From positions 1,054,001 through 1,118,000 of the forward strand of contig NZ_JAVIWI010000001.1 in NCBI RefSeq assembly GCF_034314085.1: 64,000 bases of DNA, in the 5' to 3' direction. This DNA is from Undibacterium sp. 5I1 (GTDB lineage: Bacteria > Pseudomonadota > Gammaproteobacteria > Burkholderiales > Burkholderiaceae_D). Under the pieces are notes generated by a model. The model saw only the letters and a list, made by a program, of their open reading frames with translations. It was not told where the DNA came from and did no database searches. A program made the translations under genes and the position numbers. Of the stretch, positions 15,821 to 62,324 are shown piece after piece (within the stretch, counting starts at the first letter, position 1; the number at the start of each line of letters is the position of its first letter).

Positions 15821-15843
15821 GTTATAACAAGTCAGTGCTGACT
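15821..15843 (-). promoter_or_regulatory. Operator-promoter motif, copy 1 (xis-like gene)
   Basis: On the minus strand, perfect-arm AGTCAG-CA-CTGACT (15830-15843) is followed by TATAAC (15821-15826) and the xis-like gene 49 bases on. Confidence 0.7.
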
Positions 15844-16059
15844 GATTTATAAAAAGATATGGTTAAAAACATGTTATTTATAATGCGTACTATTACGTAA
15901 GTAGTGTAAAAAGACTATTATTTATTTTTGTGGTGAAGTAGACTCAGAGCAAGTTACAAGGTGTAACAATTGACAATTGGTAAAAAATAAACGTGTCATA
16001 ATTTTTGGTATAAAATTAAAACGAAAACATCTTTTCTAGGCAGCGAATTAAAAAATGAA
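15844..16059. other. Gene-free AT-rich spacer
   Basis: Apart from the motif at its left edge and the terminator at its right edge, this stretch of very AT-rich sequence holds no ORF or RNA gene that I can support. Confidence 0.6.
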
Positions 16060-16088
16060 TAAAAAAAAAGGCACTTAATTTAAGTGCC
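16060..16088 (-). terminator. Terminator of the XRE regulator gene
   Basis: GGCACTTAATTTAAGTGCC (16070-16088) is a perfect inverted repeat. Read on the minus strand it is followed by nine T, 46 bases after the regulator stop. Confidence 0.88.
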
Positions 16089-16134
16089 AAATTATTTGAA
16101 GTTTAGTAGCGGTCATGAAAATAATTATTTAAGC

Positions 16135-16611
16135 CTAATTTTTCAGTGCATTTTTTTGGTGACGCTGACTAATCTTTTGAAAAGCTTTTGCTAAAATTTC
16201 ATGATCTTCCTTGTCTACAAGTCTTGTTTCCTGAATATTAAGATCGCGAACGAGCGCCACAAGATCAAGTTCGTATTTGGTCAAAACGGGTTGCGACAGA
16301 ATGTCATTTTGAATGGTATTCCAAGTGCCAGGTTCGTATTCCTGCATAACAAGACGATAAAGATAGAGCTTTTCTACGTTAAGCGCTTTTGCCATAAGCG
16401 CAATTTTATCAAGCGGGAGCTTACTGGCTCCTTGCTTGATCATTGTGATCATATTTGGCTTTGGGAATCCAACTTCAGAAGCGATTTGCTTTTGGGTCTT
16501 TCCGGATATTTCAATTCGGTTGCTGATAAATTCCGCAACGGTAAGTGGAGCAGAGGCAGAGTTGCCTGCATTGATTGATGGATCGGAATCGACGGGAATG
16601 TTTGTAGTCAT
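16135..16611 (-). CDS. XRE-family HTH regulator, candidate element repressor
   Basis: A 158-residue protein with an XRE helix-turn-helix at about residues 25-85 (KTQKQIASEVGFPKPNMITM then LDKIALMAKALNV). The C-terminal half is predicted helical and shows no peptidase-type Ser-Lys dyad or other LexA-like cleavage domain. Translation starts at 16611 with AGGAGA just upstream. It is transcribed away from the rest of the element and has its own promoter and terminator, as a lysogeny regulator would. It is the best candidate to bind the dispersed palindromes, but nothing in the sequence proves this. Confidence 0.75.
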   Translation of the reverse strand: MTTNIPVDSDPSINAGNSASAPLTVAEFISNRIEISGKTQKQIASEVGFPKPNMITMIKQGASKLPLDKIALMAKALNVEKLYLYRLVMQEYEPGTWNTIQNDILSQPVLTKYELDLVALVRDLNIQETRLVDKEDHEILAKAFQKISQRHQKNALKN

Positions 16612-16662
16612 ACGGCTCTCCTAAATTTAATTAACGATTTGATATTTTGTTGCCTCGTTTGC

Positions 16663-16695
16663 ATTATAGCTAAAGAAATAAGTCTATGCTTACTT
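16663..16695 (-). promoter_or_regulatory. Leftward promoter of the XRE regulator
   Basis: On the minus strand TATAAT (16663-16668) lies about 50 bases before the ATG. Upstream sits a degenerate form of the element motif (AGTAAGCATAGACT then TATTTC). Confidence 0.55.
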
Positions 16696-16840
16696 ACTTG
16701 GGTGATAGTTTAGCAAAAAAAACGAAAATTTAATAATTTTTTATAGCGATTGTATATATATCCAACTGTTTCAATGACGGACTAATAAGACACCTGCGGT
16801 AAGACATCAAAGAAATAAGTATAAAAATCACTTTAAAAAT

Positions 16841-16861
16841 AAGTAAGCGCTGAGCTATAAT
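16841..16861 (+). promoter_or_regulatory. Operator-promoter motif, copy 2 (rightward switch promoter)
   Basis: AGTAAGCGCTGAGC directly precedes TATAAT (16856-16861). It faces away from the XRE gene and drives the 64-residue gene at 16906. Confidence 0.7.
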
Positions 16862-16905
16862 GCAAATGCGTAATTAAGCAAGCAATCTAAAAGAAAGGTA
16901 CAGAA

Positions 16906-17100
16906 ATGTCGGAGAATATCGGAGCAAGTATGAAAAAAATCACGCATGAGGAATATACAGATTTATATACGGATTCAAGTCTTACAGAAACGATGAATTT
17001 AGGTAAGGTTGTCGTGCATCGGATACGTCACGATAAATTAGGCGACGTTACTATTATGATGACGTCCGATGCAGTTTGTGGAATTATCAGCAACAACTAA
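16906..17100 (+). CDS. Small protein, first rightward gene
   Basis: A 64-residue protein I do not recognise. It has its own operator-type promoter, an AAGG ribosome binding site and a strong terminator, so it is a single-gene unit. Its position opposite the XRE regulator is where a Cro-like or antirepressor gene would be, but no helix-turn-helix is evident. An internal ATG at 16930 is an alternative start. Confidence 0.65.
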   Translation: MSENIGASMKKITHEEYTDLYTDSSLTETMNLGKVVVHRIRHDKLGDVTIMMTSDAVCGIISNN

Positions 17101-17108
17101 ATAATCAA

Positions 17109-17129
17109 AGCAGCCCGTGGCTGCTTTTT
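17109..17129 (+). terminator. Terminator after the 64-residue gene
   Basis: AGCAGCC (17109-17115) pairs with GGCTGCT (17119-17125) and is followed by a T-run. Confidence 0.88.
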
Positions 17130-17196
17130 CTTTGTCAGGCAACATTACAATTATAGATTGCGCATCCTAACTAGCGTCTTTATAATAGATTTAATC

Positions 17197-17216
17197 AGTC
17201 AACGCTGACTTAATCT
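17197..17216 (+). promoter_or_regulatory. Operator-promoter motif, copy 3
   Basis: AGTCAACGCTGACT (17197-17210) with -10-like TAATCT (17211-17216), 17 bases before the VWA gene start. Confidence 0.65.
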
Positions 17217-17232
17217 AAAAAGGGGAAACTAA

Positions 17233-19200: not shown

Positions 19201-19219
19201 TTAGGCTACTTTTAAAATA

Positions 19220-19240
19220 AGTCAGGACTGACTTGTTATT
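19220..19240 (+). promoter_or_regulatory. Operator-promoter motif, copy 4
   Basis: AGTCAG-GA-CTGACT (19220-19233) followed by a TTATTC -10-like box. It lies in the gap between the VWA and AAA+ genes. Confidence 0.6.
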
Positions 19241-19318
19241 CCTGACTTTCATCAGTATCATTGAATCTGTTGAACGAGAAATCATCTTTAAATTAATGGT
19301 CAAATGACCGGAGGAAAT

Positions 19319-20509: not shown

Positions 20510-21274
20510 ATGCATCCGACAATCGAGTTTAAAGATCATGTCGGTCTGGTCCACTTGCAAGCTAAAAAAGGCTTCAAGTGGGCAGATGGGGCTAAAAGTG
20601 GTCTGACCTATGATGACATGTTCCAGGAAGCGTCAGTGGCATTTGTAATGGCGAAAGAAGGCTTTAATCCAGATTTGGGTATCAAGTTCTCTGCCTATTT
20701 TTCACAAGTGGCGTTTTCGCATTTCAGAAGAGCTATAGGGCAGATGACTGGCGTAAAAAATCTGAACCCTGAGCAGAAGCAAGAAATCGAGGCTTTAAAA
20801 GAAGAGAACCAGCGTCGAGCTGCCGCCGCCTTACCTCCATTGATGGGCTGTAACTATGGCATCAAATCGACAAACTTCTCTGAAATAGGCGCCGAAGATG
20901 AGAGCTTTGAGGGTTTTGAATCAACGATTGATTCTGGAATGGATACACCTGAGCAAATTCTGGAGTTCCATCAGATTGTTGAACAGTCTATCGAACGCTT
21001 GTCACCAATTGCGCAACTGATCGTGGAATGGTTACGCGACCCGCCAGCGCAATTGATCGCCGAGCTTGACTGTCAGATAGCTCACGCTGACCAAATGGAA
21101 GAGACGGGCAGCAGTCAAGCGGCTTGGCGTTTTCGAGAAGGTCTAAGTATTAGTAAGGTTGGCAACTTCTTGCAAATGCTTGGCGATATTCCAAGAGGCA
21201 AGTTGGTATTGGCAGAAAACGAACTGCTAAACGTAGTCACGGATATTGAAAAGGCGTATCGATATGGAAGTTGA
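20510..21274 (+). CDS. Sigma-70 region 2-like transcription factor
   Basis: A 254-residue protein. Residues about 30-78 match sigma-70 region 2 (YDDMFQEA, then FNPDLGIKFSAYFSQVAFSHFRRAI), the core-binding and -10-binding part. The C-terminal half has no clear region 4 and is helical. Phages such as T4 encode a minimal sigma (gp55) for late genes, and this could play a similar part. It starts three bases after the AAA+ gene and overlaps the next gene by 11 bases. Confidence 0.7.
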   Translation: MHPTIEFKDHVGLVHLQAKKGFKWADGAKSGLTYDDMFQEASVAFVMAKEGFNPDLGIKFSAYFSQVAFSHFRRAIGQMTGVKNLNPEQKQEIEALKEENQRRAAAALPPLMGCNYGIKSTNFSEIGAEDESFEGFESTIDSGMDTPEQILEFHQIVEQSIERLSPIAQLIVEWLRDPPAQLIAELDCQIAHADQMEETGSSQAAWRFREGLSISKVGNFLQMLGDIPRGKLVLAENELLNVVTDIEKAYRYGS

Positions 21275-25421: not shown

Positions 25422-25440
25422 AGTCATTACTGACTATAAT
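25422..25440 (+). promoter_or_regulatory. Operator-promoter motif, copy 5
   Basis: AGTCATTACTGAC (25422-25434) directly abuts TATAAT (25435-25440), 45 bases before the next gene. Confidence 0.75.
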
Positions 25441-26447: not shown

Positions 26448-26467
26448 AGTCACCGCTGAGCTATAAT
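26448..26467 (+). promoter_or_regulatory. Operator-promoter motif, copy 6
   Basis: AGTCACCGCTGAGC (26448-26461) followed at once by TATAAT (26462-26467). It drives the SSB gene from a 68-base leader. Confidence 0.78.
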
Positions 26468-30265: not shown

Positions 30266-30636
30266 TGCCCTCCAAGCGTGAGAAGCATAGCGTCAATGGC
30301 AAATTGCTTGGCGTCTGGTATGAAAGCGCTGACGGCAAGAAAATGTATCTTGCGCATAGAACGCAAAAGCAGGTCTATCGCGAGCGAAACGCTTGGTGTA
30401 TGGATTTGTCTATTTTAGAGCGCGCTAAGCTGCGTGGCGTGACTGCGATCGGAGTAGTGCGCAAAGAAGGTGGCCAGCGTCTTGTTTGGCTTACTCATAT
30501 CAATGACTTTTACGATTCGCCGCATAGCTTCAGCATCTTTCACGGCTCAAGACAATTAGGTTTGCCAATGAAGCGATTTAGAATTGATCCTCTTCGTAGT
30601 GAAGTTGTGATCAATGTTGCCGTGAAAATTAGATAG
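30265..30636 (+). CDS. Unrecognised basic protein
   Basis: A 123-residue basic protein with several Trp/Tyr residues, translated from a TAATG junction with the gene before. No motif identified. Confidence 0.6.
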   Translation: MPSKREKHSVNGKLLGVWYESADGKKMYLAHRTQKQVYRERNAWCMDLSILERAKLRGVTAIGVVRKEGGQRLVWLTHINDFYDSPHSFSIFHGSRQLGLPMKRFRIDPLRSEVVINVAVKIR

Positions 30637-30662
30637 TCAGTCCTGACTTACTTAACTATAAT
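30635..30662 (+). promoter_or_regulatory. Operator-promoter motif, copy 7
   Basis: AGTCAG-TC-CTGACT (30635-30648) with TATAAT (30657-30662) eight bases further on, a wider spacing than in most copies. Confidence 0.65.
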
Positions 30663-30685: not shown

Positions 30686-31093
30686 ATGATTCTAACAACA
30701 GCGGCGTTATGCCTCGCAATTAATATTTATCAGGAGGCTCGTGGAGAGCCAATTCTGGGCCAGTATGCCGTAGCGTCAGTCACGATGAACAGAGCGAAAG
30801 AGCCTGATAAAGTTTGTAAAACCGTATTAGCAAGAAAACAGTTTTCGTGGACGACCAAGCTTGTTAAGGGCGAACGACTCTTAAAAGCAGGCGAGCCAAA
30901 AGATAAAGATGCATGGAGAACGGCGCAAATCATCGCGAAAGTAACGCTCGAAGGTCGCATGATGGATATGACCAAAGGCGCTACTCATTACCATGCAGAT
31001 TACGTGCGACCGTATTGGTGCAGCTCGATGAAGGAAACGAACGTGCTAGGTCGTCATATTTTTTATAAAGTAAATCAGTCACAACTGACGTAG
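30686..31093 (+). CDS. SleB-type cell wall hydrolase
   Basis: A 135-residue protein of the SleB/Hydrolase_2 family with the conserved YQEARGEP, VMNR-like MNRAKEP, QFSW and GATHYHADYVRPYW segments. Such enzymes cut peptidoglycan and serve phages as endolysins. The N-terminus (ILTTAALCLAIN) is mildly hydrophobic and may be a short export signal or part of the fold. No holin is adjacent. Confidence 0.85.
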   Translation: MILTTAALCLAINIYQEARGEPILGQYAVASVTMNRAKEPDKVCKTVLARKQFSWTTKLVKGERLLKAGEPKDKDAWRTAQIIAKVTLEGRMMDMTKGATHYHADYVRPYWCSSMKETNVLGRHIFYKVNQSQLT

Positions 31094-35562: not shown

Positions 35563-35567
35563 ATTGT

Positions 35568-35587
35568 AAGCGATGACTGTCTATAAT
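35568..35587 (+). promoter_or_regulatory. Operator-promoter motif, degenerate copy 9
   Basis: AAGCGATGACTGTC then TATAAT (35582-35587). The left arm is degenerate but the spacing to the -10 is kept. Confidence 0.55.
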
Positions 35588-35633: not shown

Positions 35634-35657
35634 AGTCACAACTGACGTATATATAAT
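35634..35657 (+). promoter_or_regulatory. Operator-promoter motif, copy 10 (nrdA)
   Basis: AGTCACAACTGACG (35634-35647) followed by overlapping TATATA and TATAAT (35648-35657). It lies 29 bases before the nrdA start. Confidence 0.7.
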
Positions 35658-35685: not shown

Positions 35686-38600
35686 ATGAACGTCACAAAA
35701 CGCGATGGATCGACAGAACCGCTCAGCATTGAAAAAATTCACAAGGTAGCGCAGTGGGCAACAACCGGACTGGACGTCTCTCAATCAGAGCTAGAAGTCG
35801 AAGCGAACCTATTATTTTTTGATGGCATCAAAACAGCGACCATCCATGATGCACTCATATCTGCCGCAGCCGGTCTGAACTCAGTTGAGGCTCAGGACTA
35901 TACATTTGTCGCGGCTCGACTCTTGCTGCAAAAATTGTATAAAGAAACGTCTGGCTCAATCGAGTATCCACATCTGGCATCCTACATTCATTTTGGCGTA
36001 TTCATCAATCGCCTCAGTCCCAAGATGACGCAAGTATTTGACCTTGAAGTGTTAGACAATGTAATCGATCCTAGCCGTGACATGCTGTTCACGTACATCG
36101 GCTTGCAGACGATTGCCGATCGCTATTTGATACGAGACGACGAGGACGAAATCATTGAGCTGCCACAGCACTTCTTCATGCGTGTGGCAATGGGCTTGGC
36201 GCAGAACGAATCGAACCCGACATCGGCAGCGGTGGAGTTTTATAACGTTCTGTCATCGCATGAGTTTATTAATTCCACGCCGACATTATTCAACTCTGGC
36301 ACTTTGCACGAACAATTGGCGTCATGCTTTCTGAATACGGTGGCGGATTCTATTTCCAATGACGAGGGCAAGCATCGTTACGCTTCGATTTTTGGCACGA
36401 TTGAAGAGTGCGCTAACTTATCCAAGTATGCAGGCGGCATTGGTACGGACTGGCATCGCGTTCGTGGCACTGGCGACCGCATCAAGGGAACAGACGGCAA
36501 ATCCTCCGGCATCGTTCCTTACTTGAAGGTCTATAACGATACAGCGGTAGCGGTCAATCAATGTTTTGCGCCAGATACATTAATTCGGGTTCCGGAAGGT
36601 GTAAAGCGAATTGCGGACATAAAAATTGGCGATTTAGTTCTGGGTCAACGTGGCGCATATCGTGAAGTACGCGAAGTTATGTCTTACAGCCAGAAAGATG
36701 CGATGGTTTCAATAAAGCCGAAATACGCACTAGAGCCATTAATCGTCACATCTGGACACCCTATTTACGCGATTCAAGGTATTGAAGAAAATCAATCACT
36801 TGAAAGAACGCTTTCCCAGATCACGGCAGGTAAATATGCGGCAGAGTGGGTAGAGGCTGGCGAGTTGAAGAAGGGCGACTATGTTGCTCAGGTTATTCCT
36901 GACGAAATAGTGCCGGTTGAGGGCTTTACCGAAGATGATGCACGTCTTTATGGAATCATGTTAGGCGACGGTCATTGCGCTAAAAAGTCGATGATTGACT
37001 TTAAAGGTGATGACGTGACGGCGAAAGAGTGGGGTGTTACAGGTTCTTCGTCAGAGGAAAAGACTTTGGTTTTTGTTGCTGAATATTTGACAGCGCGTGG
37101 CTTAAAGTATGGCTATTCGACCGTAGGAAGTGGCGCGACGCAAATTAAGTGGTCATTCGGTGGAAAACAGCAAGAGCGCGATTCGTTCGGAAAGTTTGTC
37201 AGCGGTGTAAATTGTCTGCCATTTGATTACGAAGACCTTTATGACGGGGATGGAAATAAGCGTATCAGCCAAAGACTTTCTCATCTGCCACTTAATCAGG
37301 CATTAGCGATTGTTCAAGGTTTAATCGACTCAGATGGATGTATCTCTCGCGGTAAAGAAATCTCCTTTACAAATACTTCTATCAAGCTGATTGAAGGCTT
37401 GAGATACCAGCTTTTGCGGTTGGGCATTCCTACTGCCGGCAATAAGAAGGTGCGTAGTAACGAGCATCTTGGATACGATTCTATTACAACTTCGTGGGAC
37501 GTGCGCATTCCGGCGTTTGCTGAATTGGCTCAAATTTTTGGCATTCCGTCAGTGACGAAATTTAACTGGTTCAGAATTGATAATATGATCTTTGGGCGAG
37601 TTTCTTCAGTTACCGAAATTGAACCTATTTCAATTGTGCATGATCTGAAAGTGGATGGTGACGCCACTTACTCGACAACTTCCGCCCTAGTTCACAACGG
37701 CGGTAAGCGTAATGGCGCTTTTGCCGCATACATTGAGCCAATGCACCCAGATTTGTATGACTTCATCGACTTGAAGAAAGAGTCCGGTGATGATCGTCGC
37801 CGCACTCATGACATCTTTCCAGCATTGTGGATTCCCGACCTGTTCATGCAGCGCGTGAAAGATCGTGGCGTCTGGAGCTTCTTTAGCCCTAACGTCTATC
37901 CAGAGCTGCATGAAACCTATGGCGACTTATTTGAGGCGCGTTTTGAGCAGTTAGAGCGCGAAGGTAAGTTTGTTCGCCAGGTTCCTGCGCTCGACGTCTG
38001 GAAGAAAGTCATTAACGGCTTGTTCGAGACGGGCCACCCTTGGCTGACGTTCAAAGATACCTGCAACCGCCGTAATCCACAACAGCATGCAGGCATGATT
38101 CATAACTCCAATCTGTGTACAGAAATCACTCTGAACACGTCGGACGACGAGACTGCCGTGTGTAACATTGGCTCGATCAATATGTCGAAGATCAAGTCTG
38201 ATGAACATTTACGGAAAGTCGTGAGAACGGCAATGCGTATGTTGGACAACGTGATCGACATTACATTCTATCCATCTGAGCGCGCAGCGAATGCCAACAA
38301 GCGTCATCGCCCTGCAGGTCTTGGCGTGATGGGCTACACCGAGTATCTGGTTAAGCGCGGCATTGATTGGGAAAGCCAAGAGCATTTAGAAGCGGCTGAC
38401 GAATTTATGGAAAAGTTCTCTTACTACGCCATTGAAGCGTCAAGCGACTTGGCGGCAGAGCGCGGTCTGTATGAGTCGTTTAGCGGTAGCTTGTGGAGTC
38501 AAGGCATTCTACCGATCGATACAGCCAATGCTAAAGCAGCCAGCTTGACCACTCGCAAGCATGCAATGGACTGGAACGCTTTGCGTGAAAAAGTTCAACT

Positions 38601-39078
38601 GCAAGGCATGCGTAACAGCAACACGATGGCGATTGCGCCGACCGCGACAATCAGCAACATCGTCGGCACGACCGCAACTATCGAGCCGATCTATCAGCGT
38701 GAAGTGGCGAAAAAGAACATGTCCGGTCTCTTCATTGTGACCGATCCTTGCTTGCGTTATGGCGACCCGTCTCTGTGCAAAGAGGCGTTCGACATCGACC
38801 CGATCAAGTTAATTCTTGCAGCCGCAGTGCGTCAGAAGTGGCTTGACCAAGCACAGTCCACCAACATTTTCGTCAAAGGGAATGTCAAGGGACGTGATTT
38901 GGACAATATCTACATGACCGCTTGGGAGTATGGTTTAAAGACGACGTATTACTTGCGTGGTCAGTCAGCCGAAATGACGAAGTCTGTCATCGCTCCGGTC
39001 GCTGCTCCTCAAGAGCCAGATGAGCCAGTCAATAACTTGTGCAGCCTGGACAATCCCGACTGCGAGGCGTGTCAATGA
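35686..39078 (+). CDS. nrdA: Ribonucleotide reductase alpha subunit with in-frame intein
   Basis: Class I ribonucleoside-diphosphate reductase, large subunit, which supplies dNTPs. The reading frame is 1130 residues; removing the intein (residues 293-671) leaves 751, a normal NrdA. The ATP cone is at the N-terminus. Active-site Cys is in LASCFLN, the NLCTE motif and CNIGS follow, and the C-terminal redox pair lies in CSLDNPDCEAC. The intein interrupts the conserved Q-GGKRNG segment, so splicing or loss of function would directly decide activity. nrdB follows after an HNH gene. Confidence 0.93.
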   Translation: MNVTKRDGSTEPLSIEKIHKVAQWATTGLDVSQSELEVEANLLFFDGIKTATIHDALISAAAGLNSVEAQDYTFVAARLLLQKLYKETSGSIEYPHLASYIHFGVFINRLSPKMTQVFDLEVLDNVIDPSRDMLFTYIGLQTIADRYLIRDDEDEIIELPQHFFMRVAMGLAQNESNPTSAAVEFYNVLSSHEFINSTPTLFNSGTLHEQLASCFLNTVADSISNDEGKHRYASIFGTIEECANLSKYAGGIGTDWHRVRGTGDRIKGTDGKSSGIVPYLKVYNDTAVAVNQCFAPDTLIRVPEGVKRIADIKIGDLVLGQRGAYREVREVMSYSQKDAMVSIKPKYALEPLIVTSGHPIYAIQGIEENQSLERTLSQITAGKYAAEWVEAGELKKGDYVAQVIPDEIVPVEGFTEDDARLYGIMLGDGHCAKKSMIDFKGDDVTAKEWGVTGSSSEEKTLVFVAEYLTARGLKYGYSTVGSGATQIKWSFGGKQQERDSFGKFVSGVNCLPFDYEDLYDGDGNKRISQRLSHLPLNQALAIVQGLIDSDGCISRGKEISFTNTSIKLIEGLRYQLLRLGIPTAGNKKVRSNEHLGYDSITTSWDVRIPAFAELAQIFGIPSVTKFNWFRIDNMIFGRVSSVTEIEPISIVHDLKVDGDATYSTTSALVHNGGKRNGAFAAYIEPMHPDLYDFIDLKKESGDDRRRTHDIFPALWIPDLFMQRVKDRGVWSFFSPNVYPELHETYGDLFEARFEQLEREGKFVRQVPALDVWKKVINGLFETGHPWLTFKDTCNRRNPQQHAGMIHNSNLCTEITLNTSDDETAVCNIGSINMSKIKSDEHLRKVVRTAMRMLDNVIDITFYPSERAANANKRHRPAGLGVMGYTEYLVKRGIDWESQEHLEAADEFMEKFSYYAIEASSDLAAERGLYESFSGSLWSQGILPIDTANAKAASLTTRKHAMDWNALREKVQLQGMRNSNTMAIAPTATISNIVGTTATIEPIYQREVAKKNMSGLFIVTDPCLRYGDPSLCKEAFDIDPIKLILAAAVRQKWLDQAQSTNIFVKGNVKGRDLDNIYMTAWEYGLKTTYYLRGQSAEMTKSVIAPVAAPQEPDEPVNNLCSLDNPDCEACQ
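36562..37698 (+). mobile_element. Intein with LAGLIDADG endonuclease in nrdA
   Basis: A 379-residue Hint/LAGLIDADG insertion. It starts with CFAPDT (Cys293), as in splicing block A, and ends in VHN (Asn671). Two endonuclease motifs are present: LYGIMLGDGH near 421 and VQGLIDSDG near 542. The residue after the C-terminal Asn is Gly (GGC, 37699-37701), not the Cys, Ser or Thr that canonical splicing needs. Confidence 0.9.
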
Positions 39079-39083
39079 GAATC

Positions 39084-39112
39084 TTGACAGTAAGTCAGTA
39101 GTGACGTAGCAT
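39084..39112 (+). promoter_or_regulatory. Operator-promoter motif, copy 11, with consensus -35
   Basis: TTGACA (39084-39089), a 17-base spacer that contains AGTCAGTAGTGACG, then TAGCAT (39107-39112). This copy places the palindrome exactly in the promoter spacer. Confidence 0.75.
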
Positions 39113-40787: not shown

Positions 40788-40807
40788 AGTCAGCACTGAA
40801 CTATAAT
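40788..40807 (+). promoter_or_regulatory. Operator-promoter motif, copy 12
   Basis: AGTCAGCACTGAAC (40788-40801) directly followed by TATAAT (40802-40807). Confidence 0.78.
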
Positions 40808-43345: not shown

Positions 43346-44000
43346 TTTGATTGGAAAGCGATTTGGGAGACTTGTCGTCGTTTCGAGAGACCGGTCTCCC
43401 AAGAAACATAAAGCGGCGTGCTGGCTTTGCGTATGTGACTGTGGGAAGTCATCAAGCGTCAGGGCGGATGCGCTAAAGGGTGGCACTACTCAGTCTTGCG
43501 GCTGTTTCTCTAGCGAAGTTCACGCCGCTATCGCTATCCAAATAGGGCATTTGAATAGAACTCACGGTCATACGCGCCAAGGTTTAAAGAGTAAATATTC
43601 AGCAACTTATATGAGTTGGATGGCGATGCGGCAGCGATGCAATTACTCAAAGAATATTAATTACTCAAATTATGGAGGTAGAGGAATTAAGGTTTGTGAG
43701 CGTTGGGGTGCATTCATTAACTTTCTTGAGGATATGGGTGAGAGGCCAGAAGACACTCAAATCGACAGAATTGATTCAAATGGTAATTATGAGCCTGGAA
43801 ATTGCAGATGGGCGACTGTTAAGGAGCAGCAGTCTAACAGACGCGACACCTTCCATATTACGCATAACGGAGTAACTAGAACACTAGAAGAGTGGGGAAG
43901 GGTCAGAAATATGGATTCAAGATTAATTTCGATCAGAATTAGAAAGTTAGGATGGAGTGTAGAGCGAGCGTTGAGCTTTGACTTAGAGGCGTCAGCATGA
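43329..44000 (+). CDS. HNH homing endonuclease-like protein, second copy
   Basis: A 223-residue paralogue of the protein at 39147, with the same zinc ribbon (CVCDCG, CGCF), YGGRGIKVCERW, IDRIDSNGNYEPGNCRW and a C-terminal helix-turn-helix. It is inserted between the MazG-like and kinase-like genes, overlapping both. Confidence 0.85.
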   Translation: MAPVCNLIGKRFGRLVVVSRDRSPKKHKAACWLCVCDCGKSSSVRADALKGGTTQSCGCFSSEVHAAIAIQIGHLNRTHGHTRQGLKSKYSATYMSWMAMRQRCNYSKNINYSNYGGRGIKVCERWGAFINFLEDMGERPEDTQIDRIDSNGNYEPGNCRWATVKEQQSNRRDTFHITHNGVTRTLEEWGRVRNMDSRLISIRIRKLGWSVERALSFDLEASA

Positions 44001-44635
44001 GCTTGATTGGTCTTCTAGGTAGCCACCGCACTGGCAAGACCACGCTTGCAAAAGTCTACGCTGAAAAACATGACTTGATCTTTGTCGAGACTTCGGTCTC
44101 GTCAATTTTCAAGCAAATGGGGTTGGACCCGGCTGCAAAGTTCAAATTTAAAGAGCGATTAGAAATTCAGGAAGAAGTTCTTCGTTCTGTGGAGGAGATT
44201 TACAACCGGATTGATCCTAGCGTGAGCGCAATCGCTGACAGAACGCCACTCGACATGCTTGCATACACGATGAGCGAAGCGATTGGCGACTCTGTAGGTA
44301 AGCGTGAGCAAGCGAAATTCGCTTCCTATGTACGTCGATGTTTTGAAGTGACGAATCGTCGGTTCTCCAGTCTTATCTTGGTACAGCCTGGCATTCCGGT
44401 CATTGCGATGCAGGGTAAGGCGATAGCAAATGAAGCCTACATGGAGCATTTGAACTCGCTGATGCTTGGACTCAGTCTTGATGAACGGATAAAAGTTCCT
44501 CACTTCTATATTCCGCGAGGTGTACTTAGTCTTGAAGGGCGCGTGACGGCATTGGATGGTGCGGTCAACATGGTAACAAGGTCGGCGCAACATGAAGTCG
44601 AGCAGTACACGGCTTCGGGCGGTAAGTTTCAATAG
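43997..44635 (+). CDS. P-loop ATPase/kinase-like protein
   Basis: A 212-residue protein with Walker A GSHRTGKTT (residues 8-16) and an acidic-basic ADRTPLDMLAY segment like nucleoside or nucleotide kinases and AAA_28 proteins. Its place beside thyX and MazG suggests nucleotide metabolism. The substrate is not identifiable. Confidence 0.7.
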   Translation: MSLIGLLGSHRTGKTTLAKVYAEKHDLIFVETSVSSIFKQMGLDPAAKFKFKERLEIQEEVLRSVEEIYNRIDPSVSAIADRTPLDMLAYTMSEAIGDSVGKREQAKFASYVRRCFEVTNRRFSSLILVQPGIPVIAMQGKAIANEAYMEHLNSLMLGLSLDERIKVPHFYIPRGVLSLEGRVTALDGAVNMVTRSAQHEVEQYTASGGKFQ

Positions 44636-44642
44636 GCAATGT

Positions 44643-44678
44643 GCTTGGGTATGTTTAAAAGAGTGACTATACCCAAGC
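44643..44678 (+). repeat. Inverted repeat/hairpin with 10-bp perfect stem
   Basis: GCTTGGGTAT (44643-44652) pairs perfectly with ATACCCAAGC (44669-44678) over a 16-base loop. No U-run follows. A degenerate operator half-site (AGTCACACGACTT, from 44707) lies between it and the next gene. Confidence 0.7.
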
Positions 44679-44741
44679 GTGAATTTATACAATTTGTTTG
44701 TCAGTAAGTCACACGACTTGCAATCACTGGAGATTAATAGA

Positions 44742-44993
44742 ATGAATACGAGCAAGGTATCTACTAGCATTATGAAAATCACGCCAACGATAGCGGCTAA
44801 TCTTTTGAAAAAGAATAAGCCAGATAATCGTGATGTTAGACCTGGAAATGTCGCCAAGTTTGTCAAAGAATTAAAGTCAGGCAATTTTAAAACAACTCAT
44901 CAGGGCATTGCCTTTGATCAAGATGGCTTTTTGACTGACGCTCACGCTGCTGCCCTGTATGCGACCGGCGTATTGAGTCGGGTAATTGGCTAG
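44742..44993 (+). CDS. ParB-like domain protein, apparently truncated
   Basis: An 83-residue protein. ITPTIAANLL..N......VRPGNVAKFVKEL..G.FKTTHQGIAFDQDGFLTD follows the opening of phage ParB/DGQHR-type proteins, but the DGQHR motif is replaced by DAHAA and the protein ends where the family usually goes on for 200 or more residues. It is probably a remnant. GGAG lies before the ATG. Confidence 0.6.
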   Translation: MNTSKVSTSIMKITPTIAANLLKKNKPDNRDVRPGNVAKFVKELKSGNFKTTHQGIAFDQDGFLTDAHAAALYATGVLSRVIG

Positions 44994-45020
44994 GCTAATT
45001 TAAGGTTTGCGTTAAAAGTA

Positions 45021-45039
45021 AGTCATCGGTGACTATACT
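45021..45039 (+). promoter_or_regulatory. Operator-promoter motif, copy 13
   Basis: AGTCATCGGTGAC (45021-45033) abuts TATACT (45034-45039). It heads the small-gene operon from 45102. Confidence 0.75.
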
Positions 45040-45101
45040 TTGTTGACGCAAACCTTTATAATTTAAGAATGAAATGCGCAGCGTTGCGCAAGGGGGCATA
45101 A

Positions 45102-45284
45102 ATGACCACATTACAGATTTTTATCATTGCCATCTGGTTGTGCATCTTACTAGGCTTATTTAGCTTCGTCATTGTATCCAGTTTCGGATACAGAATGCTA
45201 TTGGAAACTATTGCGACCATGATGTTTTATGTGGGCGTGATTGTCTCAGTGATTATCTTCGCTCATGAGTGGATAACAAAATGA
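45102..45284 (+). CDS. Small membrane protein, two predicted helices
   Basis: 60 residues, nearly all hydrophobic, with a strong AGGGGG ribosome binding site. It overlaps the next gene by ATGA. A holin-like role is possible but not shown. Confidence 0.6.
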   Translation: MTTLQIFIIAIWLCILLGLFSFVIVSSFGYRMLLETIATMMFYVGVIVSVIIFAHEWITK

Positions 45285-45697
45285 GTGACGTTCCAGTCTT
45301 ACGCGAAGAGTTAGACCGCAAGTCGCTGGAGACAGCTCAATGGTTGCTGAACTCGTTTCAAAACCATAGCATCACTGCCGAGCAGTTCAGCACTGGGCTT
45401 GATACGTTATTCATGGCGGTGTCCGGTCTGGTGGATGAAGAATTGATCGACCTCATTACGGCATGCGATCAGTACACCAAGAATTTGAACAATGTCGTAA
45501 AGGCGCATTTCTGCAAAGACAGATTCACGCATTCGGTTACTTGGAAAGTGGGCGAGACTTCTTTATTGATAGAGAAACGCCAGGATGGAAGCATTTACGA
45601 CGAAGAGACAAAACACTTCGGATCAGCCGAGATTGCGAACAAAGCCATGCAACTGATCGAAAACAATTACATCAAAAGCGGCTGTGAAAAACTTTAG
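45281..45697 (+). CDS. Unrecognised protein
   Basis: 138 residues, predicted helical at the N-terminus with a beta-rich C-terminus (SVTWKVGETSLLIEKR). Coupled to the membrane protein upstream. No motif recognised. Confidence 0.6.
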   Translation: MSDVPVLREELDRKSLETAQWLLNSFQNHSITAEQFSTGLDTLFMAVSGLVDEELIDLITACDQYTKNLNNVVKAHFCKDRFTHSVTWKVGETSLLIEKRQDGSIYDEETKHFGSAEIANKAMQLIENNYIKSGCEKL

Positions 45698-45706
45698 GAG
45701 GGGCCT

Positions 45707-46138
45707 ATGCCTGTTGCTTCAACGTCTATCGCGGCATTTAAGACAGCGCCGATCAAACCGATGCGTGACATGGTCTATGAAGTGATAGAGAGCTATGGCG
45801 CGTCAGGATGCATTACAGACGACGTTATCGCGTTCTTTGCAAAGACGGACAAGACCAACACCGGACGCATCACTGGGCGCTTCTCAGAGCTGGAAAAAGA
45901 GAAGCGCATCGTGAGAGTAGGGGATACACGGTCGGGCATATCGGGCAAACAGCAATTAGTGATGCGAGCCACGGTTCACGCTGCCGGTATGAAGGTAATG
46001 ACGCCAGCGAAGGTTGCGCGGAAAACGGGATTCTTGGCAGGCATGATGTTCGCTGCAAGACTGGTGGCAAAAGAGACTGATATCTCAGTGGCAAAAGGGG
46101 CGCTCAAGCGCGAGTTATTAAAAGTGGCGAAAAGGTAG
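45707..46138 (+). CDS. Winged-helix-like protein
   Basis: A 143-residue basic protein with a strong AGGAGGGG ribosome binding site. Residues 15-75 (MRDMVYEVIESYGASGCITDDVIAFF...GRITGRFSELEKEKRIVRVG) look like a winged helix. The C-terminal half is Lys/Ala-rich. Possible DNA-binding protein. Confidence 0.55.
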   Translation: MPVASTSIAAFKTAPIKPMRDMVYEVIESYGASGCITDDVIAFFAKTDKTNTGRITGRFSELEKEKRIVRVGDTRSGISGKQQLVMRATVHAAGMKVMTPAKVARKTGFLAGMMFAARLVAKETDISVAKGALKRELLKVAKR

Positions 46139-46145
46139 AGCAAAT

Positions 46146-46433
46146 ATGGATAAAGATATTAAGTCGCCAATCAAAAGTGGCTGGCGCAATAACATCAATG
46201 GGTATGTGGAAGGCTGCGTGAAAACTGAGGTAAAGGTTAGCCAAATTAACCTTTCTCTTGATCAGGAGACCGCATGGGCGCTGTGCAATTTACTGTGTGA
46301 CAGCGAGTTAGAAAAGTCAGGCGCAATAAATAGACCGCAATTTCCGATGATGTCTAACCTTGGCGCTGCATTGGGGCGAATGATCGACCATAGCGCCGCA
46401 AACAACAGCGGTAGAAAGGTGATAAAAACATGA
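46146..46433 (+). CDS. Unrecognised small protein
   Basis: 95 residues, with no motif recognised; it overlaps the MazG-like gene by ATGA. Confidence 0.55.
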   Translation: MDKDIKSPIKSGWRNNINGYVEGCVKTEVKVSQINLSLDQETAWALCNLLCDSELEKSGAINRPQFPMMSNLGAALGRMIDHSAANNSGRKVIKT

Positions 46434-47947
46434 GCGACGATAAACAAATTGATAGGTTTTCAAATTGGCTCGCAACTTCAAGATACAAGCAAGTAATGCG
46501 GACGAGCGCCCACGAAGACACCATGATGGAAAACGCCTGGTGTGCGGCGTTGGCATCGCATCCTAAAAAGGATCTCAAATGGAGCAATTTCAAGCCGGAC
46601 TTACTGATCCAGTTCATCAAAGAAAACTCGAATTTTGATGCCAAGCTGACCGAAGAAATGCTTAATTTTGCCATCAACAATTGTGGCGAGGGTTCGCAGA
46701 CAAAGCCATACCAAGTCGAGGTTGCGTCATGGATGAAAGCGTGTTTCGGCGATGTAATTTCCGCCGACACAATCGAGCGCAATCATCGCTTTCTTGAAGA
46801 GGCGCTTGAACTGGTTCAGGCATGTGAATGCACTCAGAGCGAGGCGCATCAATTAGTCGATTATGTCTTTAACCGACCGATCGGCGAGAAGACTCAAGAG
46901 GTTGGCGGTGTAATGGTCACTCTTGCCGCATTGTGTCAGGCGCAATCAATTGACATGCAAGAGGCGGGGAGAGTTGAGCTAGAGAGAGTCTGGACTAAGG
47001 TTGAGCAGATTCGAGCAAAGCAAGCATCAAAGCCGAGATATTCGCCACTTCCTATTTCGCAGCCAGTACAGGAAAGCGACTACGAATTTGAGGCTTTTGG
47101 TGAACCGCATGTATCAATACCATATATTGAGCTTTTTAATTTACGTGCAGAGAATGCAAGACTTAAATCTGAGTCAGTGCAGGTAAGCGCGGAGCCATCT
47201 AATGAAATTATTATCGACTGCATAAAAGATTTTAAATATAAATACGACGATGGCGTGCCATTGTTAAGATTTCAAGACAGCCCACTGTTTGCTGAGTTTT
47301 GTGTGCGAATTTATAGAATGGGTTGGGGTGATTGCAATGCGTCCATAAAGTCAAAGCCAGTAAAGGTAAGTGCGGAGCCTGTCGGTTGGCTTTCGTGGGT
47401 TGGGGATAAAAACAAAATTCATTCAAGTGCGTCATACACTGACTATGAGCCACTTGCTTATGAGTCACGCGTAAAGATTTATACAGACGCGCCGAATACC
47501 GAAGCACGAATGACAGAACTCGAAAAAGAACTGGCGCACTGGAAGAGCAATCATGCCGACGTAGTCAAGCGCCTAGCGATAGCGACACAGCGCCTAGACT
47601 TGCCTGTTGAAAGAATTCTGGCGATGCGGGAAATGGAAACGTTGCAAACAAAAGTGGCGGAACTCGAAAAAGAAAACGCGCTGCTTAAAGATGTGGAAGC
47701 CAGCTTTGCACATTTAAGCGAGGCGCTTCAAGCTGATTGCGCAGCAATGAAAGAAGAGAATAAGGAGCTGCGAGCTTTATTGTGTATTCGTTCAGCTTCG
47801 CCAACACACATACCTTATATGGATGACGGAGAGATGCAGGATAACAGTATGCTACCGCGCATTGACTACAAGCGAGACTCCGTAGAAGCCATTAAGCGAA
47901 AGCTGACAGCTCGGACAGTGGCTAAATTGAAAGGCGGTGCAGCATGA
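46430..47947 (+). CDS. MazG-like domain plus coiled-coil protein
   Basis: A 505-residue protein. Residues about 100-200 carry a MazG-type helical domain (RNHRFLEEALELVQA, then EVGGVMVTLAALC) common in phage proteins. The remaining 300 residues are a variable linker containing two PVKVSAEP-like segments and a C-terminal coiled coil rich in ELEKE heptads. The domain mix suggests a nucleotide hydrolase attached to a modular tail. Confidence 0.75.
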   Translation: MSDDKQIDRFSNWLATSRYKQVMRTSAHEDTMMENAWCAALASHPKKDLKWSNFKPDLLIQFIKENSNFDAKLTEEMLNFAINNCGEGSQTKPYQVEVASWMKACFGDVISADTIERNHRFLEEALELVQACECTQSEAHQLVDYVFNRPIGEKTQEVGGVMVTLAALCQAQSIDMQEAGRVELERVWTKVEQIRAKQASKPRYSPLPISQPVQESDYEFEAFGEPHVSIPYIELFNLRAENARLKSESVQVSAEPSNEIIIDCIKDFKYKYDDGVPLLRFQDSPLFAEFCVRIYRMGWGDCNASIKSKPVKVSAEPVGWLSWVGDKNKIHSSASYTDYEPLAYESRVKIYTDAPNTEARMTELEKELAHWKSNHADVVKRLAIATQRLDLPVERILAMREMETLQTKVAELEKENALLKDVEASFAHLSEALQADCAAMKEENKELRALLCIRSASPTHIPYMDDGEMQDNSMLPRIDYKRDSVEAIKRKLTARTVAKLKGGAA

Positions 47948-48476: not shown

Positions 48477-48506
48477 TATAATAAGTAAGTCAGCGCTGAG
48501 TAACAA
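48477..48506 (+). promoter_or_regulatory. Operator-promoter motif, copy 15
   Basis: A TATAAT (48477-48482) lies upstream of AGTCAGCGCTGAG (48488-48500), which is followed by TAACAA. Either the operator overlaps the transcription start, or TAACAA is the -10. Confidence 0.6.
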
Positions 48507-48848: not shown

Positions 48849-48864
48849 CGTAAAGCTTTTACCA

Positions 48865-48898
48865 CTAACATCAGTCAGCACTGATTGACTGATGTTAG
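48865..48898. repeat. 13-bp perfect inverted repeat built on operator half-sites
   Basis: CTAACATCAGTCA (48865-48877), loop GCACTGAT, TGACTGATGTTAG (48886-48898). The left arm plus loop also reads AGTCAGCACTGA, the operator core, so the element motif is nested in a larger hairpin. No U-run follows. Confidence 0.75.
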
Positions 48899-48956
48899 GA
48901 GTGAACGTTTTACCAGTTTCATAAATCGGCAAAGTTGCCATTAAAGGAGAAAACCC

Positions 48957-49156: not shown

Positions 49157-49176
49157 AGTCATTACTGACGTATATA
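49157..49176 (+). promoter_or_regulatory. Operator-promoter motif, copy 17
   Basis: AGTCATTACTGACG (49157-49170) followed by TATATA (49171-49176), 12 bases before the next ATG. Confidence 0.7.
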
Positions 49177-56476: not shown

Positions 56477-56498
56477 AGTCACAACTGACTTGTATTGA
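56477..56498 (+). promoter_or_regulatory. Operator-promoter motif, copy 18
   Basis: AGTCACAACTGACT (56477-56490) followed by TATTGA; no intact gene follows directly. Confidence 0.55.
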
Positions 56499-56563: not shown

Positions 56564-56582
56564 CGTCACAACTGACTGTAAT
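56564..56582 (+). promoter_or_regulatory. Operator-promoter motif, copy 19
   Basis: CGTCACAACTGAC (56564-56576) abuts TGTAAT (56577-56582). Confidence 0.6.
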
Positions 56583-56739: not shown

Positions 56740-56759
56740 AGTCATCACTGAGCTATTCA
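56740..56759 (+). promoter_or_regulatory. Operator-promoter motif, copy 20
   Basis: AGTCATCACTGAGC (56740-56753) then TATTCA, 25 bases before the ATG at 56784. Confidence 0.65.
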
Positions 56760-57820: not shown

Positions 57821-57840
57821 AGTCACCACTGAGATAGGAG
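57821..57840 (+). promoter_or_regulatory. Operator motif, copy 21, next to a ribosome binding site
   Basis: AGTCACCACTGAG (57821-57833) is followed by ATAGGAG, so the motif ends at the ribosome binding site of the gene at 57849. No good -10 follows; this copy may act only as an operator. Confidence 0.5.
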
Positions 57841-58757: not shown

Positions 58758-58774
58758 TATTAATAGGATAAAAA

Positions 58775-59071: not shown

Positions 59072-59153
59072 GGACTCGAATAAGTTCCCAATGAATCGCC
59101 ATAAATCGCTTGCGATAATAACTCTATCGAAACAAACAACAGAGAGAAACAAA

Positions 59154-60201: not shown

Positions 60202-60202
60202 A

Positions 60203-60475
60203 ATGATTACACCTTTTCAGCGCGCCACCATGATCAGCTTGGCTGAGCGTCAAGCATTAGGGCAGTTCTTAAATGACTGGCCCGCCGGTCTCAACTTTCA
60301 GCAAGTCATGAACATGATGCATGGCGACGTACCAAAGAACGAACATGGACGCTACGTGATCACTATTTGGCAACCGCTCGAAGATCATGATTTTAAGCAA
60401 GTCGCCAGCTTTATCACAGAAGCCAAAGACAACCTCGTCGGCATGATGGAACATCTGTTCACAGAGCTGGAATAA
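60203..60475 (+). CDS. Unrecognised protein, paralogue A
   Basis: 90 residues from the ATG at 60203. A pattern of QAL..FL.DWP...NFQQV....GD recurs in the next gene, so the two look like diverged duplicates. Confidence 0.6.
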   Translation: MITPFQRATMISLAERQALGQFLNDWPAGLNFQQVMNMMHGDVPKNEHGRYVITIWQPLEDHDFKQVASFITEAKDNLVGMMEHLFTELE

Positions 60476-60502
60476 CCAAACACGAATTGAAAGGTAAAGC
60501 AC

Positions 60503-60775
60503 ATGGACACCGAAGTAGAAGAATGCGCAAAGAACCAGGCTGAACAAGTGGCACTCAGCACATGGCTAGATGAATATCCGAACGACAAATCGTTTGATGA
60601 AATCCTCGAAGCGATCGGCAAGGGCGACTATCTTCCGGACGATGAAGGCGATAATCAGATCTTGTTTCGCTACATGGTCGAGAGCCTAGATGGCCCAACC
60701 GTCGTAGGCATTATTGATGATACTTATCATAGCGTTTTAGAAGCCATTAATCACACCGTTAACGAAATGTTCTAA
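60503..60775 (+). CDS. Unrecognised protein, paralogue B
   Basis: 90 residues, acidic, with the pattern QVAL.TWLDEYP...SFDEIL..IGKGD shared with paralogue A. Confidence 0.6.
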   Translation: MDTEVEECAKNQAEQVALSTWLDEYPNDKSFDEILEAIGKGDYLPDDEGDNQILFRYMVESLDGPTVVGIIDDTYHSVLEAINHTVNEMF

Positions 60776-61106
60776 GGCTTAAAGTTGTCAAAGAGGCAGG
60801 ATTATTCCTGTCTTTTAAGCAACTTTATTAATCCAAGGCTAAGTCATTGATTTTAAACAATTATTTCAATGTTGTCCGAGAAGAAACTCGCAGCCAAGTC
60901 GTACCTAGCCTGATTAAATCATTAACATCTAATCGCTTCTTTCAAATCATAACCGGAAACCGCATTAATCAGCGCGGCATGACGTTTAAATCTCTTTTAC
61001 ATAACCGACTAAGTCTAACAATTTAAAGCGCTCAAACAGCGTTTAAATCAGTCGGCAATCTTACTTCAAAAGAACTACCGCCTGTCTCATTGTTTTAATA
61101 TAACTA
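60776..61106. other. Non-coding stretch with two hairpins
   Basis: About 330 bases without a gene. Just after paralogue B, GGCAGGA...TCCTGTC with a T-run (about 60794-60817) looks like a terminator. At about 61003-61054 CCGACT...AGTCGG encloses ATTTAAAGCGCT/AGCGTTTAAAT, a large imperfect hairpin. Confidence 0.5.
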
Positions 61107-61125
61107 AGTCAGCACTGACAAACAA
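61107..61125 (+). promoter_or_regulatory. Operator motif, copy 22
   Basis: AGTCAGCACTGAC (61107-61119) followed by AAACAA, a poor -10; a better TATAAC lies just upstream (61099-61104). Confidence 0.55.
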
Positions 61126-61142
61126 TTCACCTTTAAACCGAT

Positions 61143-61340
61143 ATGAACTTTCCATCACTCAACACTAGAAATCACGCAAGCTTGGATTACTTCTCGATCC
61201 AAATTGATAACCTATTTGAACTCAATGAGCCGACACTACCTGGCAACTTCGCAATGAATGAAAGCAAACGCGAAAGAATAGAGCAAGAGCTTAGCGGCTC
61301 AGCGGGCGGATTAAGTAAAGAGAATAACAAGCGGAGATAG
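61143..61340 (+). CDS. Unrecognised small protein
   Basis: 65 residues with a very short leader after operator copy 22 and no clear ribosome binding site. Hydrophilic. Moderately doubtful as a gene. Confidence 0.4.
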   Translation: MNFPSLNTRNHASLDYFSIQIDNLFELNEPTLPGNFAMNESKRERIEQELSGSAGGLSKENNKRR

Positions 61341-61403
61341 AAATAACTCAACATTGCAAATTGGCATTACAATTAAATTCTTAACATCTAATGAAGGAAC
61401 TGT

Positions 61404-61820
61404 ATGAGCAACAACAATAACAGCAATGTCGTTTGGACTTTGGTTGGTTTGTGTATTGGCGTATTAATTCTAGGTTACTTGGCATTAAAATCTGTCGCAG
61501 ACATGCTAAGCGTGGATATAAAAACTCTTGGATGGATGATTTTCTTCGCCGCAATAATAATTTGTCTGATAGTTTTAGCTATTGCATTTGAGTTTAAATG
61601 TTGGCTACCTTTCACCCTTGCAGCGGCGTGGTTCATTATGACGCCAGCTTTGAAATATTGGTCAAGACTCTCCGTTGATGTACTCAGCGAGCGGGCTGGA
61701 ATTGAAACACTTGATCCAGTATATGACTGGTACGGACGACTTGGATATCAAGGTCTAATCATTGCAGGCTTAATTATTGTTGGAGTAGCGGCTCGTGGAC
61801 TCTTTTGCCCGAACAGGTAG
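61404..61820 (+). CDS. Membrane protein with about four helices
   Basis: 138 residues with AAGGA before the ATG and hydrophobic segments near 10-27, 42-64, 67-85 and 113-132. The family was not recognised. Confidence 0.7.
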   Translation: MSNNNNSNVVWTLVGLCIGVLILGYLALKSVADMLSVDIKTLGWMIFFAAIIICLIVLAIAFEFKCWLPFTLAAAWFIMTPALKYWSRLSVDVLSERAGIETLDPVYDWYGRLGYQGLIIAGLIIVGVAARGLFCPNR

Positions 61821-62304
61821 ACAAAGAACTCTACCGGCGTAATTCTCACTCTATAAAGACAACTAGGCACTAGAGAAGACACGTAAGACGCTCAGGCTGA
61901 CATCGACTATATGCAAACGTCAGGCTTTTTCGCTTGATGTCGGTAGAAGGGTAGGCCTATAGGTAGATGTATGAGGGTGAAGAGGCGAGTGGAGTAAGTT
62001 GTTAGTGAGATTAGGATATTGTGTGTTTGCATCTGTGTTTGCATGCGTATGTGGAAGGATTGCCTGGCAAGGTGTTGTATTCATTAAAAATTACAACAGA
62101 CCCGGCAATCCTTCCACTTTCTCTCGACGTCAATCAAACGTTGAACAACAATCGGCACATCGCCGTTTTATATTCAGCAGCCTGTGCCACTACACACAAG
62201 CCACCGTCTCGCCTACACAGAAAAGCTCATAGCGGACACAGTTATTGTAGTCCAGACCCACTAGACCCAAGGAACCCAAGCTTTAATTTGCCACTTGCAA
62301 GATA
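61821..62304. other. Gene-free stretch with a long hairpin
   Basis: No convincing coding sequence. A weak terminator-like T-run lies near 61925-61930, and a strong nested hairpin at 62052-62116. Short forward frames here lack ribosome binding sites. Confidence 0.5.
62052..62116 (+). repeat. Nested 65-base hairpin
   Basis: TGGAAGGATTGCC (62052-62064) pairs perfectly with GGCAATCCTTCCA (62104-62116), and inside GTTGTA (62074-62079) pairs with TACAAC (62092-62097). Confidence 0.8.
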
Positions 62305-62324
62305 AGTCACGGCTGAGCTATAAT
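62305..62324 (+). promoter_or_regulatory. Operator-promoter motif, copy 23
   Basis: TTGCAA (62295-62300), an 18-base spacer containing AGTCACGGCTGAGC (62305-62318), then TATAAT (62319-62324). No coding gene follows for almost 600 bases. Confidence 0.78.

Follow-up and report, generated by a model that had tools for sequence, protein, structure and literature searches.

The phage-plasmid P1 has one repressor, C1, with many scattered, asymmetric operators; C1 does not belong to the XRE family. The operator of phage 434 is a symmetric sequence of 14 bp, and the 434 repressors act at few operators in one control region. In the SPbeta prophage of Bacillus subtilis, one repressor (MrpR) acts on a repeated element (SPBRE) in many promoter regions, and ten genes are named in the accessible part of the report (PMC10516654). 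Cluster A mycobacteriophages have up to 30 dispersed sites per genome, whose motifs vary with repressor distance, and show a spectrum of immunity types (PMC6550527, accessible part). In Cyrano, a phage-plasmid of E. coli LF82, the putative repressor CYRAN_45 is a prophage gene expressed at least 5-fold above the local background (PMC9928086, accessible part). Here an integrated phage element of 105 kb from Undibacterium sp. 5I1 is described. It begins in a stretch of 64,000 nucleotides (the window, C1:1054001-1118000 of the 4.88-Mb genome), to which the next 72 kb were added (window-extended coordinates); about half of the element lies beyond the window. A single palindrome recurs about 35 times in the element, with nearly every copy at the start of a gene. 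Comparison among relatives suggests that this palindrome, TAAGTCANNNNTGACTTA, is very probably the operator of the lysogeny repressor of the prophage, an XRE (Cro/CI-type) protein encoded at 16135..16611 on the minus strand, and that this protein would silence most of the element.

MrpR/SPBRE and the cluster A stoperators come nearest to what is described here, and with these and P1 C1 the layout is known in kind. The element would share with P1 one repressor with many operators, and differs from it in the symmetry of the sites and in the repressor family. The 434 Cro and CI-type proteins (2cro, 3cro) have the same DNA-binding-domain fold as the candidate, and the 434 operator is alike in length and symmetry; its few operators contrast with about 35 here, over both early and late operons. 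As in SPbeta, repeated sites at numerous promoters of a large prophage would be served by one phage repressor. MrpR, however, is recombinase-like whereas the candidate here is a Cro-type helix-turn-helix (HTH) protein, and SPBRE is a different, 15-bp motif with fewer sites and, in the accessible text of PMC10516654, no specificity series. The cluster A system is alike in its dispersed sites and in site motifs that vary in step with the repressor. Its sites are, however, mostly not associated with promoters, block elongation, and are asymmetric and oriented (PMC6550527, same part), whereas those here lie near gene starts and are palindromic, with one residue tracking one base pair. Like CYRAN_45 of Cyrano, the XRE gene is divergent from a CobT-like gene; the accessible part of PMC9928086 describes no operator and does not use the word, and the dispersed palindromes of Cyrano differ (TAAGTN4ACTTA and AACAANTTGTT). 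No lysogeny operator is described for these phages in the literature searched, which lacks most subscription journals. New, as far as seen, are the phage group, a palindrome placed at the promoters of early and late operons alike, and a natural series of repressor/operator specificities.

A first-pass annotation of the window had listed 20 copies of the palindrome, and all of them are found at or within one base of their listed positions (39092 is 39093). With a position matrix trained on five related phages only, 19 of the 20 score above 8 bits and the copy at 16842 does not. Two degenerate forms had also been proposed. The matrix places the first (35568) three bases to the left, at 35565 with 8.9 bits, and does not recover the second (44707). 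The copies are real, but the count of about 20 was too low because the element continues to 119077 (window-extended). In the whole element 34 positions exceed 12 bits against 1.6 expected, three of them inside called genes (31077, 71832, and 107983), and no position exceeds 12 bits in 31 kb of host flank. Sites absent from the earlier list include a weak one at 16681 in the XRE promoter and one at 48873 in an inverted repeat. A first matrix that was retrained on its own matches drifted to more than 100 sites and was dropped for the relatives-only matrix.

The most enriched sequence is a perfect palindrome. With up to three mismatches allowed, AGTCAGNNCTGACT matches the window 54 times where 20.5 matches are expected; none of 100 shuffles reaches this number. 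Exact AGTCAN4TGACT is found 16 times in the element and, with up to one mismatch, 33 times (five third-order simulations gave 0.2 and 4.0 on average). For the ~4.77 Mb of genome outside it, three exact copies are present among the matches listed, where exact copies come first. With one mismatch allowed, the genome-wide count (153) is not above that of a reversed-pattern control (157), and therefore the motif excess is confined to the element. The earlier statement that all copies belong to the element agrees with these counts.

The placement of the sites was examined with our own, crude gene calls. In ten genomes 314 of 351 sites are noncoding, while noncoding DNA makes up 11-26% of each genome. 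In seven genomes a called gene begins no more than 300 bp downstream of 231 of 268 sites. The sites of these seven genomes that are noncoding, far from a contig end, and orientable to a downstream gene number 214. A good -10 box abuts the palindrome in 43 of them (spacer class; 7.4 with shuffled flanks, 17 antisense) and lies upstream of the palindrome in 33 (start-side class; 10.9 shuffled, 21 antisense), with four sites in both classes. Boxes were scored by hexamer frequencies. The pattern described earlier, a -10 box 13 or 14 bases after the first base of the site, is found for about ten of the listed copies; a second group, e.g., 17197 and 48488, has its -10 box upstream. In the element, sites downstream of the -10 box are found at 17197, 48488, 68726, and 84592. 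The -35 boxes had been called mostly poor, which does not hold for the group: the spacer class, pooled over the seven genomes, has a mean score of 1.75 versus -1.01 for shuffled flanks. The best-scoring promoter spacers in the element are 16-18 bp long (scan range 15-19). Since the sites take two placements around complete promoters, steric repression fits better than activation, and between the two, a choice left open in the first-pass annotation, we regard repression as favoured.

On sequence conservation, the motif is an old feature shared by phages and phage-plasmids related to SSU5 and pABTJ2. A search of viral contigs with the polymerase of the element gave 29 loci; GTCAN4TGA[CG] is present at three times expectation or more in 25 of these, and in a de novo palindrome search AGTCAN4TGACT or its core ranks first in 19 of the 24 loci long enough. 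Among 14 whole records, 13 carry 9-34 exact AGTCAN4TGACT (reversed-pattern control 0-5), and the fourteenth, G461, has none but carries 17 AGTAAN4TTACT (control 0). Another 24 records include 14 with a K-P-N repressor (named for residues 51-53), and these have 7-37 AGTCA copies (control 0-9) and 0-1 AGTAA. Both pABTJ2 and G480 have 13 AGTAA copies and no AGTCA. The whole record of G465 holds 12 AGTAA (control 2) and 2 AGTCA exact copies, and G464 holds 3 AGTAA, 4 AGTCA, and 15 hybrid sites, so that hybrids are 15 of 22. Neither exact motif is found in the whole records of Cyrano or of the presumed virulent relatives nickie and BUCTxx99, and the latter two have no XRE gene in the 50-kb stretch searched. 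One AGTAA copy and no AGTCA is found in each of SSU5 and pJN2-26; the 50 kb of SSU5 that were searched also hold no XRE gene. Distant XRE homologs in bacterial genomes (L042-L062, mostly Rhodobacterales by name) have no AGTCA among their four best palindromes; one of them, L047, has 5 GTCAN4TGA[CG] against 0.9 expected.

The sites are also shared at orthologous genes. For reciprocal best hits, five AGTCA relatives share site-bearing genes with odds ratios of 9-75 (p 0.0012 to 8e-10). With the element, site sharing is likewise found for genomes with changed operators: G461 (odds ratio 23, p 2e-4), pABTJ2 (8, p 0.007), G464 (9, p 0.002), and G465 (6.5, p 0.024). Sites kept in several changed-operator genomes precede the CobS, helicase, ParB-like, portal, major capsid, and tail-Ig genes, and therefore early as well as late operons carry their own operators.

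The candidate repressor has 158 residues and matches phrog_8 (1.6e-9); its score for Pfam HTH_3 is 19.8, below the family cut-off of 23. In its predicted model (mean pLDDT 88, pTM 0.61), helix 3 of an HTH begins at N53, and K51-P52-N53 stands at the start of the recognition helix. 434 Cro (2cro) superposes on the HTH of the model with rmsd 1.9 A over 64 columns (TM 0.80 by target), and the predicted HTH domain is of the Cro/CI fold. The best Foldseek E-values are for Stl chains, with rmsd 12-14 A, and therefore only the HTH is matched with confidence. Nineteen polymerase loci extend upstream of CobT, and 16 of them have an XRE homolog there; the other ten loci are too short. As expected of an immunity repressor, the gene in the element lies close to the integrase gene and is transcribed divergently from CobT.

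Half-site base 4 covaries with residue 51 of this protein. The base was tallied in 59 loci or records. With K51 proteins it is C in 487 of 518 half-sites, and with N51 proteins it is A in 144 of 214. For the comparison of classes, 24 rows with fewer than six half-sites, Cyrano and pJN2-26 among them, were dropped, leaving 35. The C class comprises 30 of the 35 rows, in which residue 51 is K (25), R (2), S, T, or Q (1 each). A is the majority in three N51 rows, each of an independent lineage: L038 (35 A, 1 C), L142, which is G465 (53 A, 23 C, 12 T, 4 G), and L070 (32 A, 5 T, 1 G). L143, which is G464 and has N51-P52, is mixed, with 21 A and 23 C half-sites. Once one alignment gap is moved, residue 51 is the only one among columns 25-110 whose states in L038, L142, and L070 (N, N, N) never occur in the 30 AGTCA rows. 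On a quick CobS tree of 51 rows, the N state at this residue involves four changes, and the three usable independent pairs give 2.7 on average in the same direction and none in the opposite one. The proposed specificity series runs from K51 with AGTCA, through N51-P52 (G464) with both about equally and N51-R52 (G465) with mostly AGTAA in a mixed set, to N51-Q52 (G461 and pABTJ2) with AGTAA. A rule that Gln at residue 52 gives AGTAA was rejected, as L008 (S51-Q52) uses AGTCA, and was replaced by residue 51.

Predictions for some records were fixed beforehand. All 12 named K-P-N records and two added ones (L137 and L150) have AGTCA as expected. In L142, AGTAA is enriched as expected and AGTCA (2) is not absent; L143 fits neither class and looks like an intermediate. 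On the balance of the sequence data we lean, with little more than even confidence, towards repressor specificity having changed at least three separate times via residue 51, with operators rewritten at one base pair per half-site and the core orthologous promoters kept; G464 and G465 would then be living promiscuous intermediates.

From the covariation and the placement we infer XRE binding and repression. An XRE dimer would bind each symmetric site, with residue 51 of helix 3 recognizing base pair 4 in both half-sites. When it occupies the spacer between the -35 and -10 boxes, or the start side of a complete sigma-70 promoter, it would block RNA polymerase. The replication, nucleotide-metabolism, packaging, capsid, and tail operons have their own operators, so that one protein could shut down most of the element by direct action, with no need of a lambda-style cascade. 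The protein probably also represses its own gene weakly via 16681. For the element-wide regulon read by this XRE protein, as proposed in the first-pass annotation, the comparison gives good support, and the earlier reading as a whole stands in part.

Several observations weigh against repression by the XRE protein or against the role of residue 51. At promoters, 142 of the 214 sites have no -10 box above threshold in either placement, and the antisense -10 counts (17 spacer, 21 start side) are not low. RHEph10 has an XRE gene, yet its three exact AGTCA sites equal the control (3). L031, L034, and L035 have no XRE gene in the 2.6-4.2 kb upstream of CobT and still hold 2-6 motif copies further on; these are fragments, and therefore the gene may lie elsewhere or be lost. 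As to residue 51, L142, counted in the AGTAA class, has the mixed tally given above. The class comparison did not include L159, a 12-kb fragment with K51 whose half-sites are evenly split (3 C, 3 A). The result also needs a one-residue gap in the L070 (Acinetobacter) protein to be moved left of N53; with the gap placement of the aligner itself, the column scan finds no qualifying column. Three independent pairs are too few for significance in a sign test. Lastly, AGTAAN4TTACT is found 0 times in Cyrano (N51-A52) and once in pJN2-26 (N51-P52), whole records in both cases, and therefore N51 alone does not predict the operator.

The palindrome might instead be read by an activator that binds the promoter spacer, like MerR-type or middle-promoter activators, and turns genes on in lytic growth, an option raised in the first-pass annotation. 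The commonest placement, abutting the -10 box, would suit such a protein. This is nevertheless improbable, and it was rejected as first choice because the sites also lie downstream of the -10 box, i.e., they flank it on either side, and because the -35 boxes are better than chance. The 16-18 bp spacers are moreover not lengthened, as those of MerR promoters are; nickie and BUCTxx99, as presumed virulent phages, have no motif; and the position of the XRE gene is that of an immunity repressor. Still less probable is that the copies serve mainly as stoperators at which a bound protein halts elongating polymerase. Many dispersed copies with one repressor make the same layout as in cluster A (PMC6550527, accessible part), and to this extent the likeness noted earlier holds; the comparison fits only partly because nearly all copies are noncoding (314/351) and near gene starts (231/268).

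It is also improbable, about as much as an activator, that the sites have another reader, namely the sigma-like protein (20510-21274), the HTH_17 protein (15476-15820), or a host protein. That the sigma-like protein is similarly distributed, accompanying most phages that have the motif and going undetected in nickie and BUCTxx99, is a further point against the XRE protein as reader, and the three motif-bearing fragments without XRE at its usual place agree with it. Sigma factors, however, do not read two-fold symmetric sites at a variable distance from the -10 box, which is what is found here. The HTH_17 protein is not found around the polymerase gene of several motif-bearing phages (e.g., L012, L026, and L030), and a host reader is difficult to reconcile with three exact sites outside the element among the matches listed. 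The covariation points to residue 51 of the XRE protein, and repression by this protein remains by far the preferred reading.

If this reading is true, most phage operons are held off directly by a single small protein. Natural repressor/operator pairs make the specificity change of a regulator with dozens of targets testable, and would predict immunity exclusion between phages. G464 and G465, if correctly interpreted, would illustrate the passage of an immunity system to a new specificity when more than 20 operators are involved. The phage group occurs in many viral contigs and clinical Acinetobacter plasmid records.

The element is bounded by perfect 52-bp direct repeats at tRNA-Cys. The left repeat, attL (14063..14114), overlaps the 3' part of the tRNA-Cys gene, and its partner lies at 119026-119077 (window-extended), the right end of the element. 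The left junction region (14037-15475) also holds the gene for a tyrosine integrase (14291..15475, plus strand; phrog_1 1.7e-34, PF00589), next to that for an excisionase-like HTH_17 protein (15476..15820, minus strand; PF12728, phrog_25665), which has an operator upstream. The element further encodes a DnaE-type polymerase, CobT and CobS homologs, the sigma-like protein, a ParB-like protein, the large terminase subunit, the portal, and the major capsid protein. An open reading frame (ORF) at 66648-67280 (window-extended) looks ParA-like by sequence inspection and has homologs in several relatives.

Among the matches listed, the top phage relatives of the polymerase are Stenotrophomonas BUCTxx99 (44%) and Rhizobium RHEph10 and Pseudomonas nickie (42%), followed by Klebsiella, Cyrano, and SSU5 (36%); the top plasmid relatives are Acinetobacter baumannii phage-plasmids (56-58%), and one further plasmid record matches at 60-80% over less of the query. 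In the accessible part of PMC12977533, Acinetobacter phage-plasmids are typed as AB_1, 'SSU5 (distant)', phage-plasmids are typically without integrases, and chromosomal copies are treated as captured and defective. The element has DnaE, CobT, and CobS homologs in common with the SSU5 and AB_1 phage-plasmids (DnaE identity 36-58%). They are episomal and typically integrase-free, whereas the element has an integrase and 52-bp att repeats; because it is integrated, it is a relative and not a member of this group. Of 399 genomes from the same order, one has the polymerase gene (E up to 1e-150), namely the genome described here; of 98 related genomes, two have the XRE gene, this genome among them.

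The sites in the window are as follows, with scores by the relatives-only matrix. At the left end, an operator of 21.4 bits (15830..15843) precedes the xis-like gene, and the weak site in the promoter of the XRE gene itself (16681..16694, 8.5 bits) lies over the -35 region by sequence reading. A weak operator-like copy, AGTAAGCGCTGAGC (16842..16855, below 8 bits), stands directly before the TATAAT of gene 16906. Just downstream of a TATAAT, an operator of 22.5 bits (17197..17210) precedes the CobT-like gene 17233, and one of 20.1 bits (19220..19233) precedes the CobS-like gene and is common to relatives including pABTJ2 and G461. TATAAT abuts the operators before gene 25485 (25422..25435, 22.7 bits) and before the single-strand binding protein gene 26535 (26448..26461, 12.3 bits). 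Others precede the endolysin-like gene 30686 (30635..30648, 21.0 bits) and the SbcD-like gene 31105 (31077..31090, 17.5 bits, overlapping the end of the preceding gene). The ribonucleotide reductase gene 35686 has two, the weak 35565..35578 (8.9 bits) and 35634..35647 (17.5 bits). The operator at 39093..39106 (19.3 bits) is inside the TTGACA-17-TAGCAT promoter of the HNH gene 39147.

Further to the right are 40788..40801 (11.1 bits, TATAAT abutting) before gene 40853, the intergenic 45021..45034 (21.4 bits), and 48488..48501 (18.6 bits, downstream of TATAAT) before gene 48540. The match at 48873..48886 (17.8 bits) may be a terminator hairpin, because it is inside a longer inverted repeat, TAACATCAGTCA ... 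TGACTGATGTTA (48860-48900). The remaining operators are 49157..49170 (18.1 bits) before gene 49188, 56477..56490 (21.3 bits), 56564..56577 (17.0 bits), 56740..56753 (11.8 bits) before gene 56784, 57821..57834 (14.2 bits) before gene 57849, 61107..61120 (17.5 bits) before gene 61143, and 62305..62318 (10.6 bits, TATAAT abutting).

An ORF of about 60-75 codons (up to 95 with an upstream start) exists between the repressor and CobT genes in 20 of 20 stretches, in a cro-like place. The copy in the window, upstream of the repressor gene (16906-17100), has no PHROG or Pfam match; it is possibly an antirepressor or a Cro-like partner. In the sublineage of L031, L034, and L035, no repressor gene is seen in the interval that separates CobT from a 458-aa ORF (ligase-like by position). 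Among the Cyrano palindromes (L065, L066; OV696614.1), AACAANTTGTT occurs before many gene starts, and TAAGTN4ACTTA has the same outer half-site with a different spacing. Another phage-plasmid, p1DB053 (L071, NZ_CP087336.1), has 40 TCATCN5GATGA copies in its first 50 kb, with cas3f annotated at 43416-46652, and these copies are perhaps a CRISPR array. The ribonucleotide reductase of the element (35686-39078, 1130 aa) has family matches at 1-292 and 664-1130 only, and the ~370 residues of another kind between them are possibly an intein. G465 (L189-L199) is a viral contig of 215 kb, twice the usual size; it encodes an XRE homolog, and palindromes of the AGTAA type are spread over it from 28 to 213 kb.

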